37,852 nt of DNA from Betaproteobacteria bacterium (GTDB lineage Bacteria; Pseudomonadota; Gammaproteobacteria; Burkholderiales; SG8-39). The stretch is from NCBI GenBank assembly GCA_009693435.1, contig SHXF01000046.1, positions 1 through 37,852 on the forward strand, given 5' to 3'. Shown here piece after piece: positions 29,348 to 37,852 of this stretch (the stretch's first letter is position 1; the number at the start of each line of letters is the position of its first letter). Made by a program: the position numbers and the translations under genes. The notes beneath the pieces are model-generated. The model did not search any database, had not been told where the DNA came from, and worked only from the letters and a program-made list of their open reading frames with translations.

Positions 29348-30164
29348 ATCCGGTGTTTCCGGCGCGCCCAGTCCCGCGTACGCCGACTACCTCAAGCGCG
29401 AGCGCCGCTCGCGCTTTGCGGTGCGCGGCTCCCAAGCCGCATTGCTGGTGGTGTTCCTGATTTTATGGGAGGTGCTGCCCAGGGCGCAGATCATCAATCC
29501 GCTTTTCACCAGCTACCCGTCGGCGCTGATTCCGACCTTTATCGAGCTGCTCAAGGAGACCCCGCAACAACAAAGCATTCTGGCGCACGCCTGGTCGACG
29601 ACTTTCGCCACGGTCATAGGATTTACCCTGGCGATGGCGCTGGGAACGCTGGCCGCCGCGGCGTTATGGTACTGGCAGACTCTGTACCGCATCCTCGACC
29701 CCTACCTCGTAGTGGCGAACGCGATGCCGAAAACCGCGTTCGTGCCGATTTTCTACATCTGGCTCGGCGCGTCCCTGTCGATTTACGGGATGTCGCTCGC
29801 GATCTCGTTGTTCATCACCATCCTCATCCTGTACAACGGTTTCCAGGAAGTGGATCCGAACAAGATCAAGCTGGCGCGAACCTTCGGCGCCAGCCGCGCG
29901 CAGATTTTTCGCAAAGTGATTTTTCCGGGCAGTGTTCCCACCATGTTCGCCGCGCTCAAGGTCAATGTCGGACTGTCGCTGGTCGGGGTGGTGGTTGGTG
30001 AACTGCAGTCCGCCAGCGTGGGACTCGGGTATCTCATCCAGTACGGCAGTCAGGTCTTCAAGCTCAACATCGTCATGACCGCGATTGCGATACTCGCGCT
30101 GCTGTCCGTGCTGCTGTACGCAATGATCTATTTCCTGGAGGCAATCGTCGCGAGGCGCCGCTAG
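29334..30164 (+). CDS. NitT/TauT-type ABC transporter permease
   Basis: A 276-residue inner-membrane permease with about six helices. The EAA loop is 'EVDPNKIKLARTFGASRAQIFRKVIFPGSVPTMFAALK' in parts, with the central A-x-x-x-G-A pattern for contact with the ATPase. 'AMPKTAFVPIFYIWLGAS' is another family block. The start is ATG 29334, within the ATPase 3' end. Its stop shares the tetramer CTAG (30161-30164) with the stop of the convergent Bug gene, so the two 3' ends overlap by 4 bp. Confidence 0.94.
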   Translation: MSKVESGVSGAPSPAYADYLKRERRSRFAVRGSQAALLVVFLILWEVLPRAQIINPLFTSYPSALIPTFIELLKETPQQQSILAHAWSTTFATVIGFTLAMALGTLAAAALWYWQTLYRILDPYLVVANAMPKTAFVPIFYIWLGASLSIYGMSLAISLFITILILYNGFQEVDPNKIKLARTFGASRAQIFRKVIFPGSVPTMFAALKVNVGLSLVGVVVGELQSASVGLGYLIQYGSQVFKLNIVMTAIAILALLSVLLYAMIYFLEAIVARRR

Positions 30165-31147
30165 TCGATTTTGGCGCCGGACGCCTGTATTGCCTTGCCC
30201 CACTTCGCCACCTCGCCCTGCAGGAAGGCGCGGAATTCATCGGGCGTGGTGCTGACCGACTCCGCGCCCATGGCAAGCATCGCCTGTCGATAACCCGGAT
30301 CGCGCGCCGCCTTCACCAGTTCCGCCTGCAACCGTTCGATGATGGCCCGCGGCGTTGTTGCCGGTGCAAACAGGCCCGTCCAGCTATCCACCTGGTATCC
30401 CGGGACACCGGCTTCCATCATCGTCGGCAGATCGGGAAAGGACGGCCAGCGTGCCGCGCCGGTGACGGCGAGCGCGCGCAGCTTGCCCGACTTGATCATC
30501 GAAATCGCGTTGGCCGGCGTCTCTATCATCATCGAGACATTGCCCGCCAGCAGGTCCGGCAGCGCCGCGCCCCCGCCCTTGTAAGGCACGTGCACCAGCT
30601 GGATGCCGGCGATGCTCTTCAACAGCTCACCTGCCAGATGCGATACCGAACCGTTGCCGGCCGAGGCAAAGGTGAGCTTGCCCGGATTGGCTTTGGCGTA
30701 GCCGATCAGCTCCTGCACGGAATTGATGGGCAATGCGCTGTTGACCACCACCACGTTGGGATGCTGGTGCAGCATCGAGATCGGCGCGAGGTCTTTAACC
30801 GGATCGAAAGGCAAGTTCCTGAACAGCGCCGGCGAAATGCCGTTGGTGCCAATGGTGCCGAACAACAGCGTGTAGCCGTCCCCGGCGGATTTGGCCACCC
30901 CTTCCAAGGCGATGTTGCCGCCGGCGCCGGGCCGGTTCTCCACCACGAACTGCGCCCCCATCTGTTCGGCTAGCTGCTTGCCCACGGTGCGCGCCATGAC
31001 GTCCGACGAACCGCCGGCTGCGAAGGGGACGATGATGCGGGCGGGTTTGGCGGGATAGGCCTGGGCGGTGGCGTGCGGGGCGAACGCCGCGGCGCACAAC
31101 GCAACGCCGATCGAAGCTGCGCGTGAAAGCAAGAGTGCCGTTCGCAT
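30161..31147 (-). CDS. Bug-family periplasmic substrate-binding protein (TctC-like)
   Basis: A 328-residue Bug receptor starting at ATG 31147 (GGAG six bases upstream), with signal peptide about residues 1-29 ('FAPHATAQA'). The mature part starts 'YPAKPARIIVPFAAGGSSDVMAR', which is the classical PF-AGG ligand loop. 'GAGGNIALEGVAKSAGDGYTLLFG' in parts, and 'VHVPYKGGGAALPDLLAGNV' follow. It is convergent with the ABC permease gene, with overlapping stops. No TctA or TctB gene is near. Ligand unknown. Confidence 0.93.
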   Translation of the reverse strand: MRTALLLSRAASIGVALCAAAFAPHATAQAYPAKPARIIVPFAAGGSSDVMARTVGKQLAEQMGAQFVVENRPGAGGNIALEGVAKSAGDGYTLLFGTIGTNGISPALFRNLPFDPVKDLAPISMLHQHPNVVVVNSALPINSVQELIGYAKANPGKLTFASAGNGSVSHLAGELLKSIAGIQLVHVPYKGGGAALPDLLAGNVSMMIETPANAISMIKSGKLRALAVTGAARWPSFPDLPTMMEAGVPGYQVDSWTGLFAPATTPRAIIERLQAELVKAARDPGYRQAMLAMGAESVSTTPDEFRAFLQGEVAKWGKAIQASGAKID

Positions 31148-31323
31148 GATTTCTCCGGACAGGGACTGCGGCACAATCGCCACAGCAGCGGACATTTTCC
31201 TTCAAACCCCGGCACCCGGCTGGACATTCGACGGTCCCCAATGGCAATGGCGGGGCGCGCACTCAAATGCCGGGGAATGGTACGATGACTCCGAATAGAG
31301 CTTACGCGGCTAATGTGTCCATT

Positions 31324-31662
31324 ATGTTGAGCCAAACTACTGCGCTTCCGGTTGCAGAGGAACAAATCAGGGAAATCGCGCAGAGAATTGGCCGCGAGTT
31401 TCAACCGCGCGGGATCATCCTGTTCGGTTCCTACGCCAGGGGCGAACAAACAGCCGATTCGGACATCGATCTGCTCGTGATCTTCCCGCATCCGGTTGAC
31501 AAGGCCGCCGAGGCAGTGAAAATCAGGCGTGTGATCGGTCGCGTCAACACCGGCGTCGACGTTGTTGTCAGTTCGGCGAAGGAGCTTGCCGAATGGGAAG
31601 GTGTCAAGGGCACTCTGTACTTTTACGCGCGGAGGGAGGGCCGGCTCCTTTATGGCCACTAG
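31324..31662 (+). CDS. MNT-type minimal nucleotidyltransferase (HEPN/MNT antitoxin-like)
   Basis: A 112-residue minimal nucleotidyltransferase. The catalytic pattern is 'LFGSYARGEQTADSDIDLLV': Ser36 of G-S and the Asp47 and Asp49 pair. This is the MNT (MntA) class, which usually pairs with a HEPN RNase gene; the MntA antitoxin AMPylates the HEPN toxin. I start at ATG 31324; upstream in-frame ATGs at 31267 and 31285 lack a good ribosome site. The next gene begins within its 3' end (ATG 31652) as a HEPN should, but only a fragment of HEPN is left, so this antitoxin is probably orphaned. Confidence 0.88.
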   Translation: MLSQTTALPVAEEQIREIAQRIGREFQPRGIILFGSYARGEQTADSDIDLLVIFPHPVDKAAEAVKIRRVIGRVNTGVDVVVSSAKELAEWEGVKGTLYFYARREGRLLYGH

Positions 31663-31840
31663 CCTGGATTTTGCCGCCGAGTTGATCGCTGCTGGGGACC
31701 GGGATCTTGTGGTGGTCAGAATCGGTGTCGAGATTCAGGATATTCCTATCGAAACGCTGAACAAGCAGAATTGGGCTTCCAGGTTCACTGCATGCGTCCG
31801 TCCGCGGCGGGTCTTGGACTCGAATATCGAGGCGAATCAG
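31652..31840 (+). pseudogene. HEPN-domain toxin remnant (5' end only)
   Basis: The frame starts with an ATG overlapping the MNT gene by 11 bp, as in normal MNT-HEPN operons. It reads 'MATSLDFAAELIAAGDRDL', then 'VVVRIGVEIQDIPIETL', which fits the first helix and following loop of HEPN proteins. After about 35 codons the similarity ends; the neighbouring frame shows a short 'ELGFQ' that may be a trace of the next helix. The expected RxxxxH active site is missing. The frame stays open into the YajD-type gene, so a fusion of 190 residues is formally encoded. Confidence 0.6.
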
Positions 31841-32224
31841 ATGTCACAGAAGAAATCATTCGAGGTCGGCGGCAACCGGAGCCCGATCGTGGCCGAGGCG
31901 CATCGCCAGCAGGCGCTGCGCGAGCAGACCTACCGTGAACAGGCGCTCAAGCTCTATCCCTGGGTCTGCGGGCGGTGCGCGCGCGAATTCGGCGGCAAGA
32001 CGCTGCGCGAACTCACGGTCCATCACAAGGACCACAACCACGACAATAATCCCGCCGACGGCAGCAACTGGGAGCTGTTGTGCCTCTATTGCCATGACAA
32101 CGAGCACGCGCGACAGCAGGTTGCCGATGCTTACGGCACGACGGCGCGCGGGGGGCAGCCGGAACTCCCGTCGACGTACAAACCGTTTGCCGCCCTGCAG
32201 GACTTGTTGAAGCGCAGGACCTAG
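31841..32224 (+). CDS. YajD-type HNH nuclease
   Basis: A 127-residue HNH protein of the YajD family. Zinc-binding pairs are Cys43-x2-Cys46 ('WVCGRCAREF') and Cys81-x2-Cys84 ('LLCLYCHDNEHA'), framing the HNH core 'LTVHHKDHNHDNNPADGSNW' (His61, His62, Asn69 region). The start ATG 31841 gives the normal family N-terminus ('MSQKKSFEVGGNRSPIV...'). The true substrate of YajD is unknown. It lies directly downstream of the HEPN remnant and in frame with it, possibly after a deletion. Confidence 0.9.
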   Translation: MSQKKSFEVGGNRSPIVAEAHRQQALREQTYREQALKLYPWVCGRCAREFGGKTLRELTVHHKDHNHDNNPADGSNWELLCLYCHDNEHARQQVADAYGTTARGGQPELPSTYKPFAALQDLLKRRT

Positions 32225-32375
32225 CCGACCAGGACAGGGGCGCCGTCGACACGCGCCTGCGATTACGTGCGGCCCCGACAGGCTCGGCCCGAACGGCGTC
32301 GTGCATTTTGAAAAGATCCATAACCGGAACTGGCCGCTGGCGTTCCTTCGGCCGATGGCACCGGAATATTCCGAT

Positions 32376-32786
32376 TCAGCGCTTGAGCCAGTTCTCCATG
32401 CGCAAACCGGGAACGCGCCGGAATTCCCGGGTGTTATCTGTCACCAGCAGGGCGTCGTCGGCCAGCACCTGCGCCGCTATCCACAGGTCGGTTGCCCCGA
32501 TTGGACTGCCTTTGGCCTCGAGATCGGCTCGCAGGATGGCATAACATTCCAGAGCCGCCGCGTTGAGGGGAACTATGCCACCGGCCATGGCGAAAAGTCG
32601 CTCCAGGCGTGCTCGAAGTGCGTCGGCCGGCCGGCCTGAGCGGATGTACCTTTGCAGGCCAAAACGCAATTCCGCGGCCACCATGTAGGGAATCTGCACA
32701 CGATCGCCATGTTGCAGCAACCTGGCCGCGACACGGCGGTCGTCCCGCATTGCGGCGGCGCAGATGTTGGTATCGAGCAGAATCAC
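32376..32786 (-). CDS. vapC: Type II toxin VapC (PIN-domain RNase)
   Basis: A 136-residue PIN protein. The acidic active-site residues are Asp5 ('MILLDTNICA'), Glu39 ('VAAELRFG'), and the Asp of 'IGATDLWIAAQ' and 'LVTDNTREF'. VapC toxins cleave tRNA or rRNA. It overlaps the upstream vapB-like gene by 4 bp (ATGA), so translation is coupled. 'RRVPGLRMENWL' is a typical VapC C-terminus. Confidence 0.93.
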   Translation of the reverse strand: MILLDTNICAAAMRDDRRVAARLLQHGDRVQIPYMVAAELRFGLQRYIRSGRPADALRARLERLFAMAGGIVPLNAAALECYAILRADLEAKGSPIGATDLWIAAQVLADDALLVTDNTREFRRVPGLRMENWLKR

Positions 32787-33076
32787 CGCTGGCGGGTTGA
32801 TTTGCGCCCTACCGTCGGAGCGCGAACCATCCCCAGTTTCACGGCACGCGGAGCTTCCTTGTCGCGCAACTGCGCCGTGGTGTAGCCGAATTCAACACCG
32901 GGTTCAGCGAAAAACAGATCCCATCGACCCCGTAACGCCGAGATAAAAAGCCCTCCCTCGCGCCGTTCGATGGTGACTTCGCCTTCGGGCAGATCGAAGT
33001 CGCGTGGAATTCGAACTGCGCGGCTGTTGCCTGCCCGAAACACGCGCGTCCGCACTGGCTTGCCCAAGGATTCCAT
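32783..33076 (-). CDS. vapB: Type II antitoxin VapB (AbrB/SpoVT-like fold)
   Basis: A 97-residue antitoxin. The N-terminal 'RTRVFRAGNSRAVRIPRDFDL' (in parts) is the swapped-hairpin AbrB DNA-binding fold with the GNSxAVRIP motif. The C-terminal half is a toxin-binding tail. It is the first gene of the vapBC pair. An imperfect palindrome lies 20 bp upstream and may be its operator. Confidence 0.92.
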   Translation of the reverse strand: MESLGKPVRTRVFRAGNSRAVRIPRDFDLPEGEVTIERREGGLFISALRGRWDLFFAEPGVEFGYTTAQLRDKEAPRAVKLGMVRAPTVGRKSTRQR

Positions 33077-33095
33077 AACGATTACCCCAACAACG

Positions 33096-33118
33096 CGTAA
33101 TCACATTATGTTATCACG
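33096..33118. promoter_or_regulatory. Imperfect palindrome upstream of vapB, likely operator
   Basis: CGTAATCAC and GTTATCACG (seven of nine pairs match) surround ATTAT, 20 bp before the vapB start in AT-rich DNA. Such sites are commonly bound by the VapBC complex to repress its own transcription. Confidence 0.55.
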
Positions 33119-33268
33119 TAGATGCTGAACGGGCATCTCCCGCCGACACTCCCGCCGAAGGGCGGAAGCTCCAGCATCAGTCAGCGCGCGCGCTTGCCGC
33201 TTTCACGATTTGACCGTGCCAGTTTCAGTTTTGCCGCAGGGCGCCGGGACGTGTCAAAGTGCTGCACG

Positions 33269-33484
33269 CTAGAACTGCAATTTCCGGAGGTCGGCCTCCC
33301 ACGGGAAACGTCCTGTCTCGTAGCGGGAGTAGACCAGCTTTCCGTCGACCTGGACGTCGAACTGTCCGGACTTGCCGGGTTGGATGTCGACATGCCCGTG
33401 TCCATTTGCTTCGATCCAGGCCTTCACACGGAGGGCTTCGGGTCGATAGCCTCAGGCCGAGCAGTAATGAATGATGATCGCCAT
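33269..33484 (-). CDS. SelW/Rdx-family selenoprotein (in-frame UGA read as selenocysteine)
   Basis: A 71-residue protein on the minus strand that is broken by a TGA in normal gene finding. It reads 'MAIIIHYCSA', then TGA at 33452-33454, then 'GYRPEALRVKAWIEANGHGH' and on to 'FPWEADLRKLQF'. The codon sits at residue 11, making Cys8-x-x-Sec11, the redox motif of SelW/SelT/SelH (Rdx) proteins at the expected place. The remainder, including 'DVQVDGKLVYSRYETGRFP', matches the thioredoxin-like family fold. GGGAGG lies eight bases upstream of the ATG. A weak stem-loop follows the TGA. An alternative is a Cys-to-stop or Trp-to-stop null mutation, but the exact position makes that unlikely. Confidence 0.85.
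33418..33437 (-). promoter_or_regulatory. Candidate bacterial SECIS hairpin
   Basis: Fifteen to 34 nt after the UGA the minus-strand RNA can fold with a GUGU loop (loop begins 23 nt after UGA) and a stem containing two mismatches (C-C and C-A). The distance and a G at the loop start fit bacterial SECIS rules, but the stem is weak, so this is tentative. Confidence 0.4.
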
Positions 33485-33563
33485 TGTCCGAGCCTCCCGG
33501 GCGGCACGCGTGCGCCGTCGCAGACGCGAAGCTTACCGGCAGAACACGGAAATGTCTGCACCG

Positions 33564-33680
33564 TCAATGCCTCGCCGCCAGCCTGGCGCTGGCCAGCCGG
33601 TTGAGGCTGATGCCTTCCTACTCCGCCTGTAACGCCAGAGCGCGATGCACCTGCGGCGAAATCAAGGCGCAATGATCCGT
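33564..33680 (-). pseudogene. HicB-like antitoxin remnant with nonsense codon
   Basis: On the minus strand 'CALISPQVHRALALQAE', a TAG codon, then 'EGISLNRLASARLAARH' reads as the C-terminal DNA-binding part of a HicB-family antitoxin (pattern SP-xxH-xxLA-xxAxxEGxSLN). The TAG replaces the usual Gln-type position. There is no start or toxin gene. It is a leftover fragment between the selenoprotein gene and the PIN gene. Confidence 0.65.
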
Positions 33681-33687
33681 CCTCGCC

Positions 33688-34107
33688 TCACTCATCCAGG
33701 ACATGCAGAAAGTGCTGATTGCCCGGCAGACGGTAGACCGAAAAATCCTTTGCATCCGTGGTCGCGATACGGTGAATCTTCAGGCTGCTCGCCAGAAAAA
33801 CCAGGCTTGCATCGCAGAAGTCCATGGGCAGGTCTTCATATTTTTCCATCATCTTCCAGAGCGAGGCGACGGCATCGCCGGGCGGCGACTCAATGCGCAG
33901 ATACCCGAGCGACTGCGCCTTGTCGGCCCATGCGAAGAAGGCTTTCTGCCTGCCATGCGTCAGCAGGGCGCACACCTCGACGAACACCGCCCAGGTGGTG
34001 GTGGTTTGCCCGGTGTAGCCGGTAAAGAAGGTCTTGCAGCGCTGGTGGTGATGGTCCCGGGGATTGAACAGGCCCACGAAATAACCCGAGTCGGCCAGCG
34101 TGTTCAT
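33688..34107 (-). CDS. PIN-domain toxin (VapC-like)
   Basis: A 139-residue PIN protein: 'TLADSGYFVGLFNPRDHHH' carries the first Asp, 'VFVEVCALL' the Glu, 'FCDASLVFLA' and 'IATTDAKDF' the later acids. It overlaps the upstream RHH-type gene by 4 bp (ATGA). It is thus a toxin-antitoxin pair, of a type different from the VapBC pair 1 kb away. Confidence 0.91.
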   Translation of the reverse strand: MNTLADSGYFVGLFNPRDHHHQRCKTFFTGYTGQTTTTWAVFVEVCALLTHGRQKAFFAWADKAQSLGYLRIESPPGDAVASLWKMMEKYEDLPMDFCDASLVFLASSLKIHRIATTDAKDFSVYRLPGNQHFLHVLDE

Positions 34108-34430
34108 GCCGGGCTGCCGGTGCCGGGTGTTCGCTTTGTCGGCGCCCTGGCCGCACGCTCGGAGCGCCGGGCGTGCTTGCGGCGGAGGGCGGCGCGCAGC
34201 TTGAGTTTGTGCGGACGCCGTTCCGACGTCTCGCGCGCGGCATTGTCCAGCCCGGGCGTCGCGTCCCTCATCGCGTCCTCGTATATCTGCAACGAGGATG
34301 GCTGCGCATGTCTGGCCAGAAATTCCTGAATGCTGCGCACGATGACGGCTGACTTGGTCAGGCCGAGGCGGGCGCCATATCCCGCAATCTGCGTCTCAAT
34401 GTCCGCGGGCAATCGAAGGGAAATGGGCAT
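34104..34430 (-). CDS. Ribbon-helix-helix antitoxin-like protein
   Basis: A 108-residue protein starting at ATG 34430 with GAGGAG upstream; a start inside the nearby palindrome at 34451 is not plausible. The N-terminus 'MPISLRLPADIETQIAGYG' and 'LGLTKSAVIVRSIQEFL' form a ribbon-helix-helix (CopG/MetJ-type) DNA-binding fold. The C-terminal half is Arg/Lys-rich and probably unstructured until it binds the toxin. It overlaps the PIN toxin gene and sits 15 bp below a perfect palindrome, its likely operator. Confidence 0.88.
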   Translation of the reverse strand: MPISLRLPADIETQIAGYGARLGLTKSAVIVRSIQEFLARHAQPSSLQIYEDAMRDATPGLDNAARETSERRPHKLKLRAALRRKHARRSERAARAPTKRTPGTGSPA

Positions 34431-34444
34431 GGAAGCTCCTCTGA

Positions 34445-34467
34445 GATACAATTATCATAATTGTATC
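34445..34467. promoter_or_regulatory. Perfect palindrome, probable operator of the RHH/PIN module
   Basis: GATACAATTAT and ATAATTGTATC are exact inverse copies around a single C. The site lies 15 bp upstream of the RHH antitoxin start in an AT-rich patch. It fits auto-repression by an RHH antitoxin-toxin complex. Confidence 0.85.
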
Positions 34468-34477
34468 GCACGAAGTT

Positions 34478-34540
34478 GTGACTGCGTGTCGTGGCTGCGT
34501 GTCGTGACTGCCTGTCGAGACCGCGTGTCGTGACTGCGCC
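34478..34540 (+). repeat. 13-bp tandem repeat, about five units
   Basis: Units of the type gtgactgcgtgtc: copy 2 has one change, copy 3 one, copy 4 three, and copy 5 is cut to 11 bases. The array is just upstream of the RHH/PIN operator. Confidence 0.85.
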
Positions 34541-34801
34541 GGTCTCCGACGAACTGACTCGGTGGCCGGGGCGATGCGATCGGGGAGGGGGTGCTGGGGT
34601 ACGGACAGCTCGAAGCCGTTCGCCGGCGCTCGAAGCCCGGGATCAAAGTACCGCGCTGCCGGCGCGCGCCGCAGTGTTATGACTTTCAGCGAACCGCAAT
34701 CGATCCCGACGATATCCCCGTGATCGGTCGCAATTCCGAGTGGGTCGGCGAGCCGCAAAGGCGCGCACGGGGTGTCCGCTGGACCATCGAGAGGGCTACC
34801 C
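34541..34801. other. Non-coding stretch between the toxin-antitoxin module and the UspA gene
   Basis: Together with the operator and repeats this gap is 371 bp. Open frames cross it on both strands but I see no conserved protein, RNA gene or terminator in them. Confidence 0.5.
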
Positions 34802-35245
34802 ATGTACCGGAAGATTCTGGCCGTGACTTTTGGCACCGAAATGTCGAATCGGGCGGTTACCGCGGCCGCACAGGTTGCAAAAGGGCTGGGGGCAAGTCTG
34901 CTGCTGCTGCACGTGCGCTCTCCCATGGACATTCCGCACCATGCCGAAGGCGGCGTGTTGTCGAGTCCCGGCAGGGAAATCGTCACCGAAGAGATCAACG
35001 AAGAGGAGCGGAAGCTTCTCGCCGGGGCGGTGGCAATCGCCGCGTCGTTCGGCGTGCAGGCGGAAACCGCGTTCATCGCCGATATTCTGGCGTCGGACGC
35101 CATCGTCCGGGTTTCCCGCGAGCAGCAGTGCGACCTTATCGTGATGGCGACGCGCATCCGTCATGGCATCCCCGGCTATTTCGTCAAGAGCGAAACACAG
35201 AAGGTGCTGGAGCACACGGATACGCCGGTGCTGGTGGTGCGTTGA
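34802..35245 (+). CDS. Universal stress protein (UspA) family
   Basis: A 147-residue single USP domain. 'MYRKILAVTFGTEMSNRAVTAAAQVAKGL' in parts is the usual first strand and helix; 'ADILASDAIVRVSREQQCDLIVMATRI' and 'VLEHTDTPVLVVR' the rest. The usual Asp after the first strand is Thr, and the G-x2-G-x9-GS/T loop that holds ATP reads 'RIRHGIPGYFVKSETQKVL', partly degenerate, so ATP binding is uncertain. I start at ATG 34802 instead of the in-frame codon 30 bases earlier. Its stop is 14 bp before a 13-bp repeat array. Confidence 0.9.
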   Translation: MYRKILAVTFGTEMSNRAVTAAAQVAKGLGASLLLLHVRSPMDIPHHAEGGVLSSPGREIVTEEINEEERKLLAGAVAIAASFGVQAETAFIADILASDAIVRVSREQQCDLIVMATRIRHGIPGYFVKSETQKVLEHTDTPVLVVR

Positions 35246-35259
35246 TGCCGGGCTGAATT

Positions 35260-35311
35260 GCCGACATCAAGTGCCGCCATCAAGTGCCGCCATCAAGCGC
35301 CGGCATCGAGC
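35260..35311 (+). repeat. 13-bp tandem repeat, four units
   Basis: Units gccgacatcaagt, gccgccatcaagt, gccgccatcaagc and gccggcatcgagc fill most of the gap between the UspA gene and the convergent Bug gene. Confidence 0.9.
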
Positions 35312-35331
35312 ATCGACACGAAGCGGCCGCA

Positions 35332-36300
35332 TCAGTCGAGCGCGATCCCCAGGCGGCTGATCAACGGCCCCCACACCGCGCGCTCCTTCTTCAGCACCTC
35401 GGCGGCTTCTTCGGGTGACGAGACGGCCACCTCCGCGCCGTAGTCCGGATAGCGGGCCACCACCTCGGGCGAGGCCATCGCCTTGCGCAATTCCTGGTTG
35501 AGGCGCGCGACGATCTCTTTCGGCGTGCCGGCGGGCGCGATCAGGGTGTACCACACCACCACCGAAAAATCCGGCACGGCCGCTTCGGCCACCGTGGGCA
35601 CGTCGGGCAGCAGCGGATTGCGCCGCACGTCCGTGCTTGCCAGCGGACGCACCTTGCCCGATGCGATGTTGCTGCGCACATTCAGCAGGGTGAGCGAGGC
35701 GATGTCGACGCGGCCCGCGAGAAAATCCTGCATCACCGGTCCGGCGCCCTTGTAGGGTATGTGAACGAGGTCGATGCCGGCGCGGTTCTTCAGCAGTTCC
35801 ATGGTCAGGTGCTGCGGGCTGCCGATACCCGAGGAGGCGTAGGTGATCTTGCCCGGCCGTTCGCGCGCGGCGGCTATCAATTCCGTGATCGAGCGGATGC
35901 CGGAGTTTTCCCCGGAGGAGATGAAGAGCGGTATTCGCGCATACAGCCCCACCGGCAGCAGGTCGCGCACCGGGTCGTAGGGAAGCTTCTTGTACAGCGA
36001 CGTGTAGTAGGTCAGCGGGCCGACGTCACCGACGCCGATGGTGTAGCCGTCCGGGGCGGCCTTGGCGACCGCATCCGTACCTATCATGCCCCCCGCGCCG
36101 ACGCGGTTCTCGACGATAACCGTCTGGCCGAGGTTGGCCGACAGCGGCCCGGCGACCAGGCGCGCGATCGCGTCGATCGCGCCGCCGGGCGGATAGGGCG
36201 CGATCCAGCGTATCGGTCTGGCGGGCCAGGTTTGCGCCGGCGCCGGCGAGGCCAGGGCGAGGGCAAAACCGCACAGCAGCGTGCGCGACAGCTTGATCAT
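35332..36300 (-). CDS. Bug-family periplasmic substrate-binding protein (TctC-like)
   Basis: A 322-residue Bug receptor. The signal peptide is residues 1-22 ('CGFALALASPAPAQ'). The mature start is 'TWPARPIRWIAPYPPGGAIDAIAR', with a PYPPGG ligand loop. 'GAGGMIGTDAVAKAAPDGYTIGVG' in parts, 'YKKLPYDPVRDLLPVGLYA' and 'VHIPYKGAGPVMQDFLAGRV' follow. This is the fourth Bug gene of the window. No transporter membrane genes are near. Ligand unknown. Confidence 0.93.
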   Translation of the reverse strand: MIKLSRTLLCGFALALASPAPAQTWPARPIRWIAPYPPGGAIDAIARLVAGPLSANLGQTVIVENRVGAGGMIGTDAVAKAAPDGYTIGVGDVGPLTYYTSLYKKLPYDPVRDLLPVGLYARIPLFISSGENSGIRSITELIAAARERPGKITYASSGIGSPQHLTMELLKNRAGIDLVHIPYKGAGPVMQDFLAGRVDIASLTLLNVRSNIASGKVRPLASTDVRRNPLLPDVPTVAEAAVPDFSVVVWYTLIAPAGTPKEIVARLNQELRKAMASPEVVARYPDYGAEVAVSSPEEAAEVLKKERAVWGPLISRLGIALD

Positions 36301-36531
36301 GGTGTTCGCATCCTGCGAGTGGCCAATCGTTCAATATAGCAGAGGCCCGAGCCGCTTCCGGCCGGGACGAAGGCGGCGCGATGCTCACGGTCGGGAGTCC
36401 TGTTGTGGGTTCCGATGCCGGATTTCTATTGCGGTTGCGCTCGGGCTGCGGCTACGATGGGCTCGCGGGCGCAGCCGGGTGCATCGCCAACGACCACGCC
36501 CAGCGCAACGCCAGACCAAAGGGGAATGCGC

Positions 36532-36822
36532 ATGTCCATCCGACTCGTCTTGACCATCACCGCTGCGCCCGGTCGCGGCGCGGAACTCGCCAGGGTCTAC
36601 CAGGCCCGTGCAGCGGAGGTCCTCAAGGAACCCGGCTGCGAACAGTTCGAATTCTTCAGCGGTGTCGCCGATCCCGACCGCCTCATTCTCATGGAGCGCT
36701 GGACCGACCAGGCAGCCCTGGCCGCGCACGCGAAACTCCAGGAGACGCGTGCCCCGGTGCCGGCGGAACTGGTGGCGGGAGTCAGCCAGCGCGAGGACTA
36801 CCAGTACAATCGCACGCGCTGA
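36532..36822 (+). CDS. ABM-family (antibiotic biosynthesis monooxygenase / YgiN-like) protein
   Basis: A 96-residue ferredoxin-like alpha+beta fold. 'RLVLTITAAPGRGAELARVY' then 'EPGCEQFEFFSGVADPDRLILMERWTDQAALAAH' (in parts) is the standard ABM pattern, with the Glu-Arg-Trp strand near the end. Members include quinol monooxygenases and heme-degrading enzymes; no cofactor is needed in many. ATG 36532 follows 'aaaggggaatgcgc'; ATG 36526 is also possible. It ends 11 bp before a small gene and probably shares its mRNA. Confidence 0.88.
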   Translation: MSIRLVLTITAAPGRGAELARVYQARAAEVLKEPGCEQFEFFSGVADPDRLILMERWTDQAALAAHAKLQETRAPVPAELVAGVSQREDYQYNRTR

Positions 36823-36833
36823 ACGGCCTGCCG

Positions 36834-37136
36834 ATGACGCTCACATCCCGCGAACAGCGCATGAATCTTCCCGGAATCAGGAAACGCCGCACCGTGGGCG
36901 ATGTCGAGGGCTTCATCACCCTGCTGCGCGCCGCGTGCGACGACAAGGGCATGAACGACGCGCTGGAGAAACTCCTCTCCATGCCCGACGAGCAGCGCAA
37001 GACATTCGTCCATGGCTGGGTCTCCGATCTGCTGGTGAAACAGGCGCCCGCCGACTTCATCGAGGCGATTGCGTGCCTGCTCGACGATGCCGTGGCGGAG
37101 CAGGCCTACCAGGTCATCTTCCAGTGCCGGCGCTGA
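36834..37136 (+). CDS. Hypothetical protein
   Basis: A 100-residue soluble helical protein I do not recognise. ATG 36834 is used; ATG 36861 ('MNLPGIRKRRTVGDVEGFITLL') is an alternative. The middle is rich in charged helices ('DKGMNDALEKLLSMPDEQRKTFVHGWV', in parts), and the C-terminus ends in 'AYQVIFQCRR'. It follows the ABM gene by 11 bp. Confidence 0.65.
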   Translation: MTLTSREQRMNLPGIRKRRTVGDVEGFITLLRAACDDKGMNDALEKLLSMPDEQRKTFVHGWVSDLLVKQAPADFIEAIACLLDDAVAEQAYQVIFQCRR

Positions 37137-37241
37137 GTGCGGCCTTGAGTCCTATCGTAAGCATGGGTAACCACGGGATCTGCGCGTTCACCACGCGCGC
37201 ACCCTCGCGTGGCGGCATTGCGCGTATCATGGGTTGCATCC

Positions 37242-37607
37242 ATGACTGACGATGACGCCATGATCCGCCGACCGCAGAACGTCCACGTGCGCTACCACGC
37301 GCATGTGTACTTCGATGCGAAAACCCGCGACCAAGCCGAGTTGTTGTGCCGCGCCGCCGCCGAGCGCTTCGGCGTGGCGATGGGCCGCATTCATCAGCGC
37401 CCGGTCGGACCGCACCCGCGATGGAGTTGCCAGCTTGCGTTCGACGCATCGCAGTTCGACGGCCTGATCCCGTGGCTGGAGGCCAATCGAAGCGGCCTGA
37501 CGGTGCTGGTGCACGGCCAGACCGGCAACGCACTGGAAGACCACACGGCGCACGCCGCCTGGCTGGGCGAGCCGGCGGTGCTGGATCTCACCGCGTTCGA
37601 CGACTGA
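37242..37607 (+). CDS. DOPA 4,5-dioxygenase family protein
   Basis: A 121-residue protein of the DOPA_dioxygen family. Conserved histidines are in 'VRYHAHVYFDAKT', 'GRIHQRPVGPHPRWSCQLAF' and 'VLVHGQTGNALEDHTAHAAWLG', the last being the strongest family block. Fungal homologues open the DOPA ring in betalain-type pigment synthesis; bacterial ones are of uncertain substrate, though some act on catechols. The start is ATG 37242 ('MTDDDAMIRRPQ'). Confidence 0.92.
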   Translation: MTDDDAMIRRPQNVHVRYHAHVYFDAKTRDQAELLCRAAAERFGVAMGRIHQRPVGPHPRWSCQLAFDASQFDGLIPWLEANRSGLTVLVHGQTGNALEDHTAHAAWLGEPAVLDLTAFDD

Positions 37608-37661
37608 GGTGGGCGCGCCAGCGTTCGATGTCGCGGCGTCGGTGTCCGGGCGACGCTAGCC

Positions 37662-37852
37662 CTGCCCTTTACCCACAATTATTTCAACTCGTATCCGGTG
37701 GCTTGAGAGTGAAGCCCAGACAGAGGATTTGCAGGACCGTGTAGCCCTGCCACATAAGCTGGTGTCCCGGGTGCGGATCGTTGTTACGGCCAAGATAGCC
37801 ACCCAGGCGGGCTACCAGGCGGATGGTATCGCCAAGGTGGGTGGGCTGCTTG
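37662..37852 (-). mobile_element. End of an IS4/Tn5-type insertion element (cut by window end)
   Basis: CTGCCCTTTACCCACAATT at 37662-37680 matches the Tn5/IS50 end pattern (CTGACTCTTATACACAAGT) at 13 of 19 positions and lies just outside the transposase stop. The element extends beyond the window. Its 9-bp target duplication would begin at about 37653, but the other end is not visible. Confidence 0.72.
37684..37852 (-). CDS. IS4-family (Tn5-like) transposase, C-terminal fragment
   Basis: The last 55 residues are visible and open to the window edge. 'DTIRLVARLGGYLGRNNDPHPG' (in parts), 'HQLMWQGYTVLQIL' and 'GFTLKPPDTS' match the C-terminal helix and dimerisation tail of Tn5-type transposases, where the R-LGG-L-x-R-x-D-x-xPG pattern is diagnostic. 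No start is seen because the gene continues past position 37852. Confidence 0.82.
   Translation of the reverse strand, partial: KQPTHLGDTIRLVARLGGYLGRNNDPHPGHQLMWQGYTVLQILCLGFTLKPPDTS

Follow-up and report, generated by a model that had tools for sequence, protein, structure and literature searches.

The stretch of DNA analysed here, hereafter called the window, comprises 37,852 nucleotides of a betaproteobacterial contig and carries on its minus strand, at 33269..33484, a gene for a predicted SelW-like (Rdx) selenoprotein of 71 residues followed by a TAG stop codon. The open reading frame starts with an ATG codon at 33484, begins MAIIIHYCSA-TGA-GYRPEAL and ends RKLQF-TAG, and a GGGAGG resembling a ribosome site (33493..33498, minus strand) is located 8 bases upstream of the ATG. 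Codon 11 is an in-frame TGA (33452..33454, minus strand), read directly from the sequence, conserved in relatives and predicted to specify selenocysteine (Sec); its partner in the CxxU motif, assigned from sequence and alignment, is the TGC codon of Cys8 (33461..33463, minus strand). Further downstream, also on the minus strand, a bSECIS-like hairpin with the 5-nt loop CGTGT spans 33419..33437 (with columns numbered from the T of the TGA, 18-24 pair with 30-36), and the GTG of codon 20 (33425..33427) is the start of the window's own database entry (P0002, 52 aa). A preliminary description of this DNA, which gave no strand, had proposed a hidden 71-residue Rdx/SelW frame across a single TGA, with the TGA at residue 11 forming a CxxU centre with Cys8. 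Start codon, GGGAGG and stop codon were all present and the codons read as described, and the observation of a hidden SelW-type frame containing a TGA is confirmed.

In the window, selW is set among toxin-antitoxin genes and remnants, an arrangement that differs from the loci of its relatives. Just downstream, a VapB-like antitoxin and a PIN-domain VapC-like toxin are encoded on the minus strand (32376-33076); the VapC-like protein exceeded the Pfam PIN cut-off, while the NCBIfam VapB/VapC models stayed below theirs. Upstream on the same strand lies a remnant with an internal TAG (33560-33680) that, judged by eye, is similar to the C-terminus of a HicB-type antitoxin. It is followed by two overlapping ORFs (33688-34451) whose sequences suggest, again by eye, a ribbon-helix-helix antitoxin and a PIN toxin; neither matched Pfam or NCBIfam within the limits applied. 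A small nucleotidyltransferase (Pfam NTP_transf_2) is encoded on the plus strand at 31267-31662, its nearest NCBIfam model being the MntA antitoxin, below cut-off.

The read-through product matched Pfam Rdx (PF10262) over residues 3-68 (E=5.4e-16, 59 bits, cut-off 22.6) and passed the NCBIfam model TIGR02174 CXXU_selWTH (49.8 bits, cut-off 34.2); the equivalog cut-off of NF041051 SelTWH_Campy was not reached (68.4 vs 88 bits). An AlphaFold2 model with Sec modelled as Cys had a mean pLDDT of 92.8 and the element order strand-helix-strand-strand-strand-helix-helix, a thioredoxin-like predicted fold in which the CxxU centre (Cys8, TGA11) lies just after strand 1. All PDB fold matches at E≤0.001 (n=23) were SelW-related bacterial proteins, MIEN1 or mouse SelW, and a profile sequence search agreed with them. 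Proteins of the SelW/Rdx family have a redox role, and the product is probably active in thiol redox chemistry, as predicted from this family knowledge.

To find relatives, genome contigs of 84,980 species, one genome per species, were scanned using a query with Cys at codon 11 and peptide patterns that excluded this codon. The scan matched 170 stretches, 13 of which encode SelW relatives. Twelve of these come from metagenome-assembled genomes (MAGs) named as Betaproteobacteria, at 65-76% identity, and the thirteenth, at 40%, from a MAG of Rhizobiales. Codon 11 was TGA in all 13, and M1, Y7, C8 and position 11 were invariant across the 14 sequences. Since the scan patterns include PEALRVKA, protein conservation in that segment is partly ascertained, while codon choice is unaffected. 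A second sample consisted of 399 genomes of the order of one relative (G005), searched with a profile built from the 13 relatives and the window. Matches were obtained in 66 genomes, and the top 14 by score were exactly those with one in-frame TGA, the lowest of them (42.2 bits) scoring only slightly above the top TGA-free match (39.4 bits); the profile has Cys at the Sec position, and the score ranking therefore gives TGA no advantage. Thirteen of these 14 read YCxx-TGA and one (L043) FCxx-TGA. The remaining 52 genomes had only matches without TGA; eight of these proteins were read out, and they carry CxxC and belong to a different subfamily (helix 1 YCxxCxWLLRAAW...). Two genomes (G018, G151) each carry a second Rdx match without TGA in addition to a TGA-type SelW. 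In a phylum sample of 398 genomes, both matches at E≤1e-9 (G013, G544) had the TGA. Besides the window, the TGA was thus seen in 25 genomes, and the alignment with SelW homologues suggested in the preliminary description placed TGA at the Sec position in every one of these TGA-type genomes read.

Alignment A1, which served as the profile for the order and phylum samples, the PDB sequence search and the viral-contig search, carried a spurious terminal C in five rows (L001, L005, L006, L010, L012), because the terminal TGA had also been read as a residue; this was corrected in the later alignment A4. A tblastn search of the 43 pattern matches from viral contigs yielded no relative, nor was a relative of the SelW protein found in plasmid records, which matched window positions 30100-37852 only over 37-95 bases in four records. 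Across 14 selW loci, five of which have short flanks (L001, L003, L007, L009, L013), no neighbour was conserved in more than five, frames overlapping selW aside; the two groups of five consist of ORFs that by eye look receptor-like or ABC-ATPase-like and whose position varies between loci.

The sequence following the TGA was analyzed for covariation in an alignment of 24 rows, gap-free 3' of the UGA. The alignment excludes L034-L036 (the same genes as L004, L005 and L008) as well as L043 and L065, the latter pair being inspected separately. A stem formed by columns 18-24 and 30-36 encloses a 5-nt loop, whose second position (column 26) is G in all 24 sequences and also in L043 and L065. Four of the seven pairs (18-36, 21-33, 22-32, 23-31) show changes on both sides, a count matched by 12 of 500 shuffles, and 85.7% of cells are paired, vs 28-61% with slid partners, the model being derived from the same sequences as those testing it. 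The covariation score of 0.234 (shuffle mean 0.109) was reached in none of 500 shuffles, which kinship alone can beat; the number of further pair types was matched by 359 of 500 shuffles and lends no support. Pair 22-32 is unformed in 14 of 23 rows and pair 18-36 in six, the window being among both, so that five of seven pairs form in the window's hairpin, interrupted by one C.A. The stems are of three kinds, GCC-C-UC/GA-A-GGC (the window's), CCCUC/GAGGG and GGCCGCC/GGCGGCC, with variants in L044 and L045.

According to a published bSECIS model, the loop has 3-9 nt with a G in its first two positions, the stem 4-16 bp, the UGA-to-loop distance is 16-37 nt and the energy is at or below -7.5 kcal/mol (PMC13188914). 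The geometry of the window's hairpin lies within these limits (5-nt loop, five pairs, G at position 2, 21 nt spacing). Its 28-nt piece, at -5.8, is one of five pieces out of 26 above the energy limit, while the 51- and 54-nt pieces reach -14.7. In most respects, though not in all, the hairpin agrees with the published bSECIS model. Among 938 TGAs in the window, six fit the hairpin geometry under a rule that was fixed after the hairpin had been seen and that includes the selW TGA by construction. RNAalifold unaided predicted just the four inner pairs, and the window matched no Rfam family at gathering thresholds. RNA folding downstream of the TGA, proposed in the preliminary description, was borne out in part: comparison revealed compensatory changes in a hairpin whose distance from the UGA suits a bSECIS, but folds of the window alone showed no clear excess stability over shuffles (z -0.27 to -1.57), and a 44-nt piece folded differently.

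A further signature of the hairpin was observed in codon usage. Codons 17-21 are each represented by a single codon in all 13 genes with the window's kind of stem, whereas outside the hairpin all nine invariant residues that have at least four synonymous codons vary in codon (4 positions inside vs 9 outside, p=0.0014 when codon 22, variable at the outer pair, is omitted; p=0.005 when it is included). Two-fold codons stood outside this test, and two of them beyond the hairpin (C8, Q41) are also fixed. Of the codons frozen here, CGT accounts for 5 of 56 Arg codons elsewhere in these genes and GTG for 6 of 71 Val codons.

Genes for Sec decoding were searched in the genomes of the relatives. SelD was present in all 13 genomes from the species-wide scan and SelB exceeded its cut-off in 11, the other two having a C-terminal part beside tRNA-Sec (G006) or none (G008). 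SelA was over cut-off in nine; G001 and G003 have a partial SelA, and G004 and G006 none. tRNA-Sec scored at least 68 bits in ten, a limit set by the analyst, given that 5 of the 14 control genomes also exceeded the gathering score; ARAGORN reported tRNA-SeC (tca) in all six sel loci examined out of 16. For all 24 TGA-SelW genomes handled, SelB was over cut-off in 20 and SelA in 19. SelB was over cut-off in 103 of the 399 order genomes, comprising 11 of 14 with TGA-type SelW, 9 of 52 with only matches without TGA and 83 of 333 with no match (11/14 vs 92/385, Fisher p=3.9e-5, kinship of the genomes ignored). Three TGA-SelW genomes lack SelB altogether, two of which (G008, G368) have SelA, while the third (G155) has a formate dehydrogenase (FDH) bearing an in-frame TGA. 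Two full-length selB genes and two tRNA-Sec were seen in G005 (MAG28, contigs C38 and C40), reflecting a duplication or a mixed bin, and G112, G192 and G278 likewise have two full-length selB each. As far as searched, the window carries none of selA, selB, selC and selD, and a tRNA search of it found none. The PilT protein of the window shares 82-84% identity with its counterparts in G003, G005, G001 and G148, all of which have SelB over cut-off, and this kinship makes it likely that the host is a betaproteobacterium possessing the Sec trait. Judging from these relatives, the window organism likely has the Sec machinery and inserts Sec.

Taken by itself, the window shows merely a stop within a known domain, as expected if a nonsense change or a sequencing error had struck the second redox Cys of a Cys-type Rdx gene. 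The same TGA is, however, present in 25 other genomes, with protein and hairpin conserved on either side of it; a nonsense mutation or sequencing error was therefore rejected for the family, and such an origin of the window's TGA is highly improbable. Database annotation points to another product, namely the 52-residue protein starting at GTG 33427, 3' of the TGA: of the 117 entries, among which is that of the window itself, 111 start with [MV]KA, nine codons 3' of an inferred TGA, and CxxC occurs in none of the 117. A protein with this internal start would be devoid of strand 1 and the CxxU centre, yet the region preceding it is equally conserved, including the four invariant positions of the 14 sequences, and the codon freeze surrounding the GTG is consistent with the hairpin; with its active site missing, the shorter product was rejected and deserves very little credence. 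These gene models, which begin inside the hairpin and lose the active site, constitute a systematic annotation error for the family. In this sense the gene had rightly been described as hidden, but the family itself is known, and many JGI entries bear the name 'predicted Rdx family selenoprotein'.

The amino acid inserted at a UGA is not readable from sequence, and Cys or Trp could in principle be placed there through a reassigned code or a near-cognate tRNA. Elsewhere in the window, TGA ends 14 of 20 likely-gene ORFs (picked by the analyst, 15 with a family match) and is hence an ordinary stop here, for which reason a reassigned code was rejected; the association of SelB with TGA-SelW genomes fits Sec, so that insertion of another residue appears extremely unlikely. 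With the frame, the conserved UGA, the hairpin with compensatory changes and the Sec machinery of the relatives established by sequence and comparison, and the fold predicted, we are highly confident that the window gene encodes a betaproteobacterial SelW-like (Rdx, PF10262) selenoprotein with UGA codon 11 decoded as Sec, and the selenoprotein interpretation of the preliminary description is supported at the level of sequence. SelB and tRNA-Sec would decode UGA codon 11 as selenocysteine, SelB being recruited by the hairpin, with its stem starting 14 nt and its loop 21 nt 3' of the UGA, and the predicted product would adopt a thioredoxin-like fold and act in thiol redox reactions through Cys8-x-x-Sec11 just after strand 1.

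A 2006 survey describes fdhA as the sole selenoprotein gene of Sec-decoding Alphaproteobacteria, Betaproteobacteria and Pseudomonadales (PMC1794560). Among the 24 draft genomes with SelW-U, FDH-N/O alpha was over cut-off in six, five with a TGA; the match in the sixth (G009) begins at profile position 215, and no TGA was seen. None was over cut-off in the other 18, whose 122 matches to PF00384 (molybdopterin family) contained no in-frame TGA, in a search of partial sensitivity that recovered the TGA in three of five known-positive genomes. The presence of SelW with no FDH-N/O alpha over cut-off in most of these draft genomes is mildly notable against the fdhA-only picture of 2006. In two genomes selD has one in-frame TGA (G007, C261; G011, C295), and SelD itself is thus probably a selenoprotein there. 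A tentative, rather doubtful extension is that an environmental lineage of Betaproteobacteria keeps the entire Sec machinery without a Sec-type FDH, a tiny solitary SelW, in some cases with SelD, being the main client. The lineage offers a setting for asking what bacterial SelW does and whether SelW alone sustains the Sec pathway.

SelW-like selenoproteins of bacteria have been tabulated repeatedly, with table rows giving 10 (PMC1794560) and 35 (PMC5029168); the GOS survey counted 427 SelW-like genes alongside 56 Cys homologues (PMC2398784), and both PMC9312934 and PMC13188914 include such proteins in their tables. The last of these, a 2026 review, grades SELENOW-like proteins (PF10262, CxxU) as 'predicted with high confidence'. 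Such proteins being already known, the window gene adds a member. Among the open-licence papers searched, no report of a Sec-containing betaproteobacterial SelW was recognised, and our analysis adds a coherent Sec-using SelW subgroup for Betaproteobacteria, its hairpin backed by compensatory changes.

Among proteins of known structure, mouse selenoprotein W (2npb; profile E=1.2e-8, TM 0.69 by query length) and MIEN1/C17orf37 (2ljk; E=6e-11, TM 0.74) are eukaryotic, unlike the window protein. In eukaryotes, the SECIS directing Sec insertion is located in the 3'-UTR. The Cys-type bacterial Rdx proteins 2fa8, 2ojl, 3dex, 2oka, 2p0g and 2obk have the fold in common with the window protein (TM 0.79-0.88 by query length) but are only 24-28% identical to it. 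The prokaryotic SELENOW-like selenoproteins share with the window gene the PF10262 domain, a CxxU motif with Sec in second place and a bSECIS-like hairpin 3' of the UGA, and the sole difference shown for the betaproteobacterial subgroup is its near-invariant hairpin sequence.
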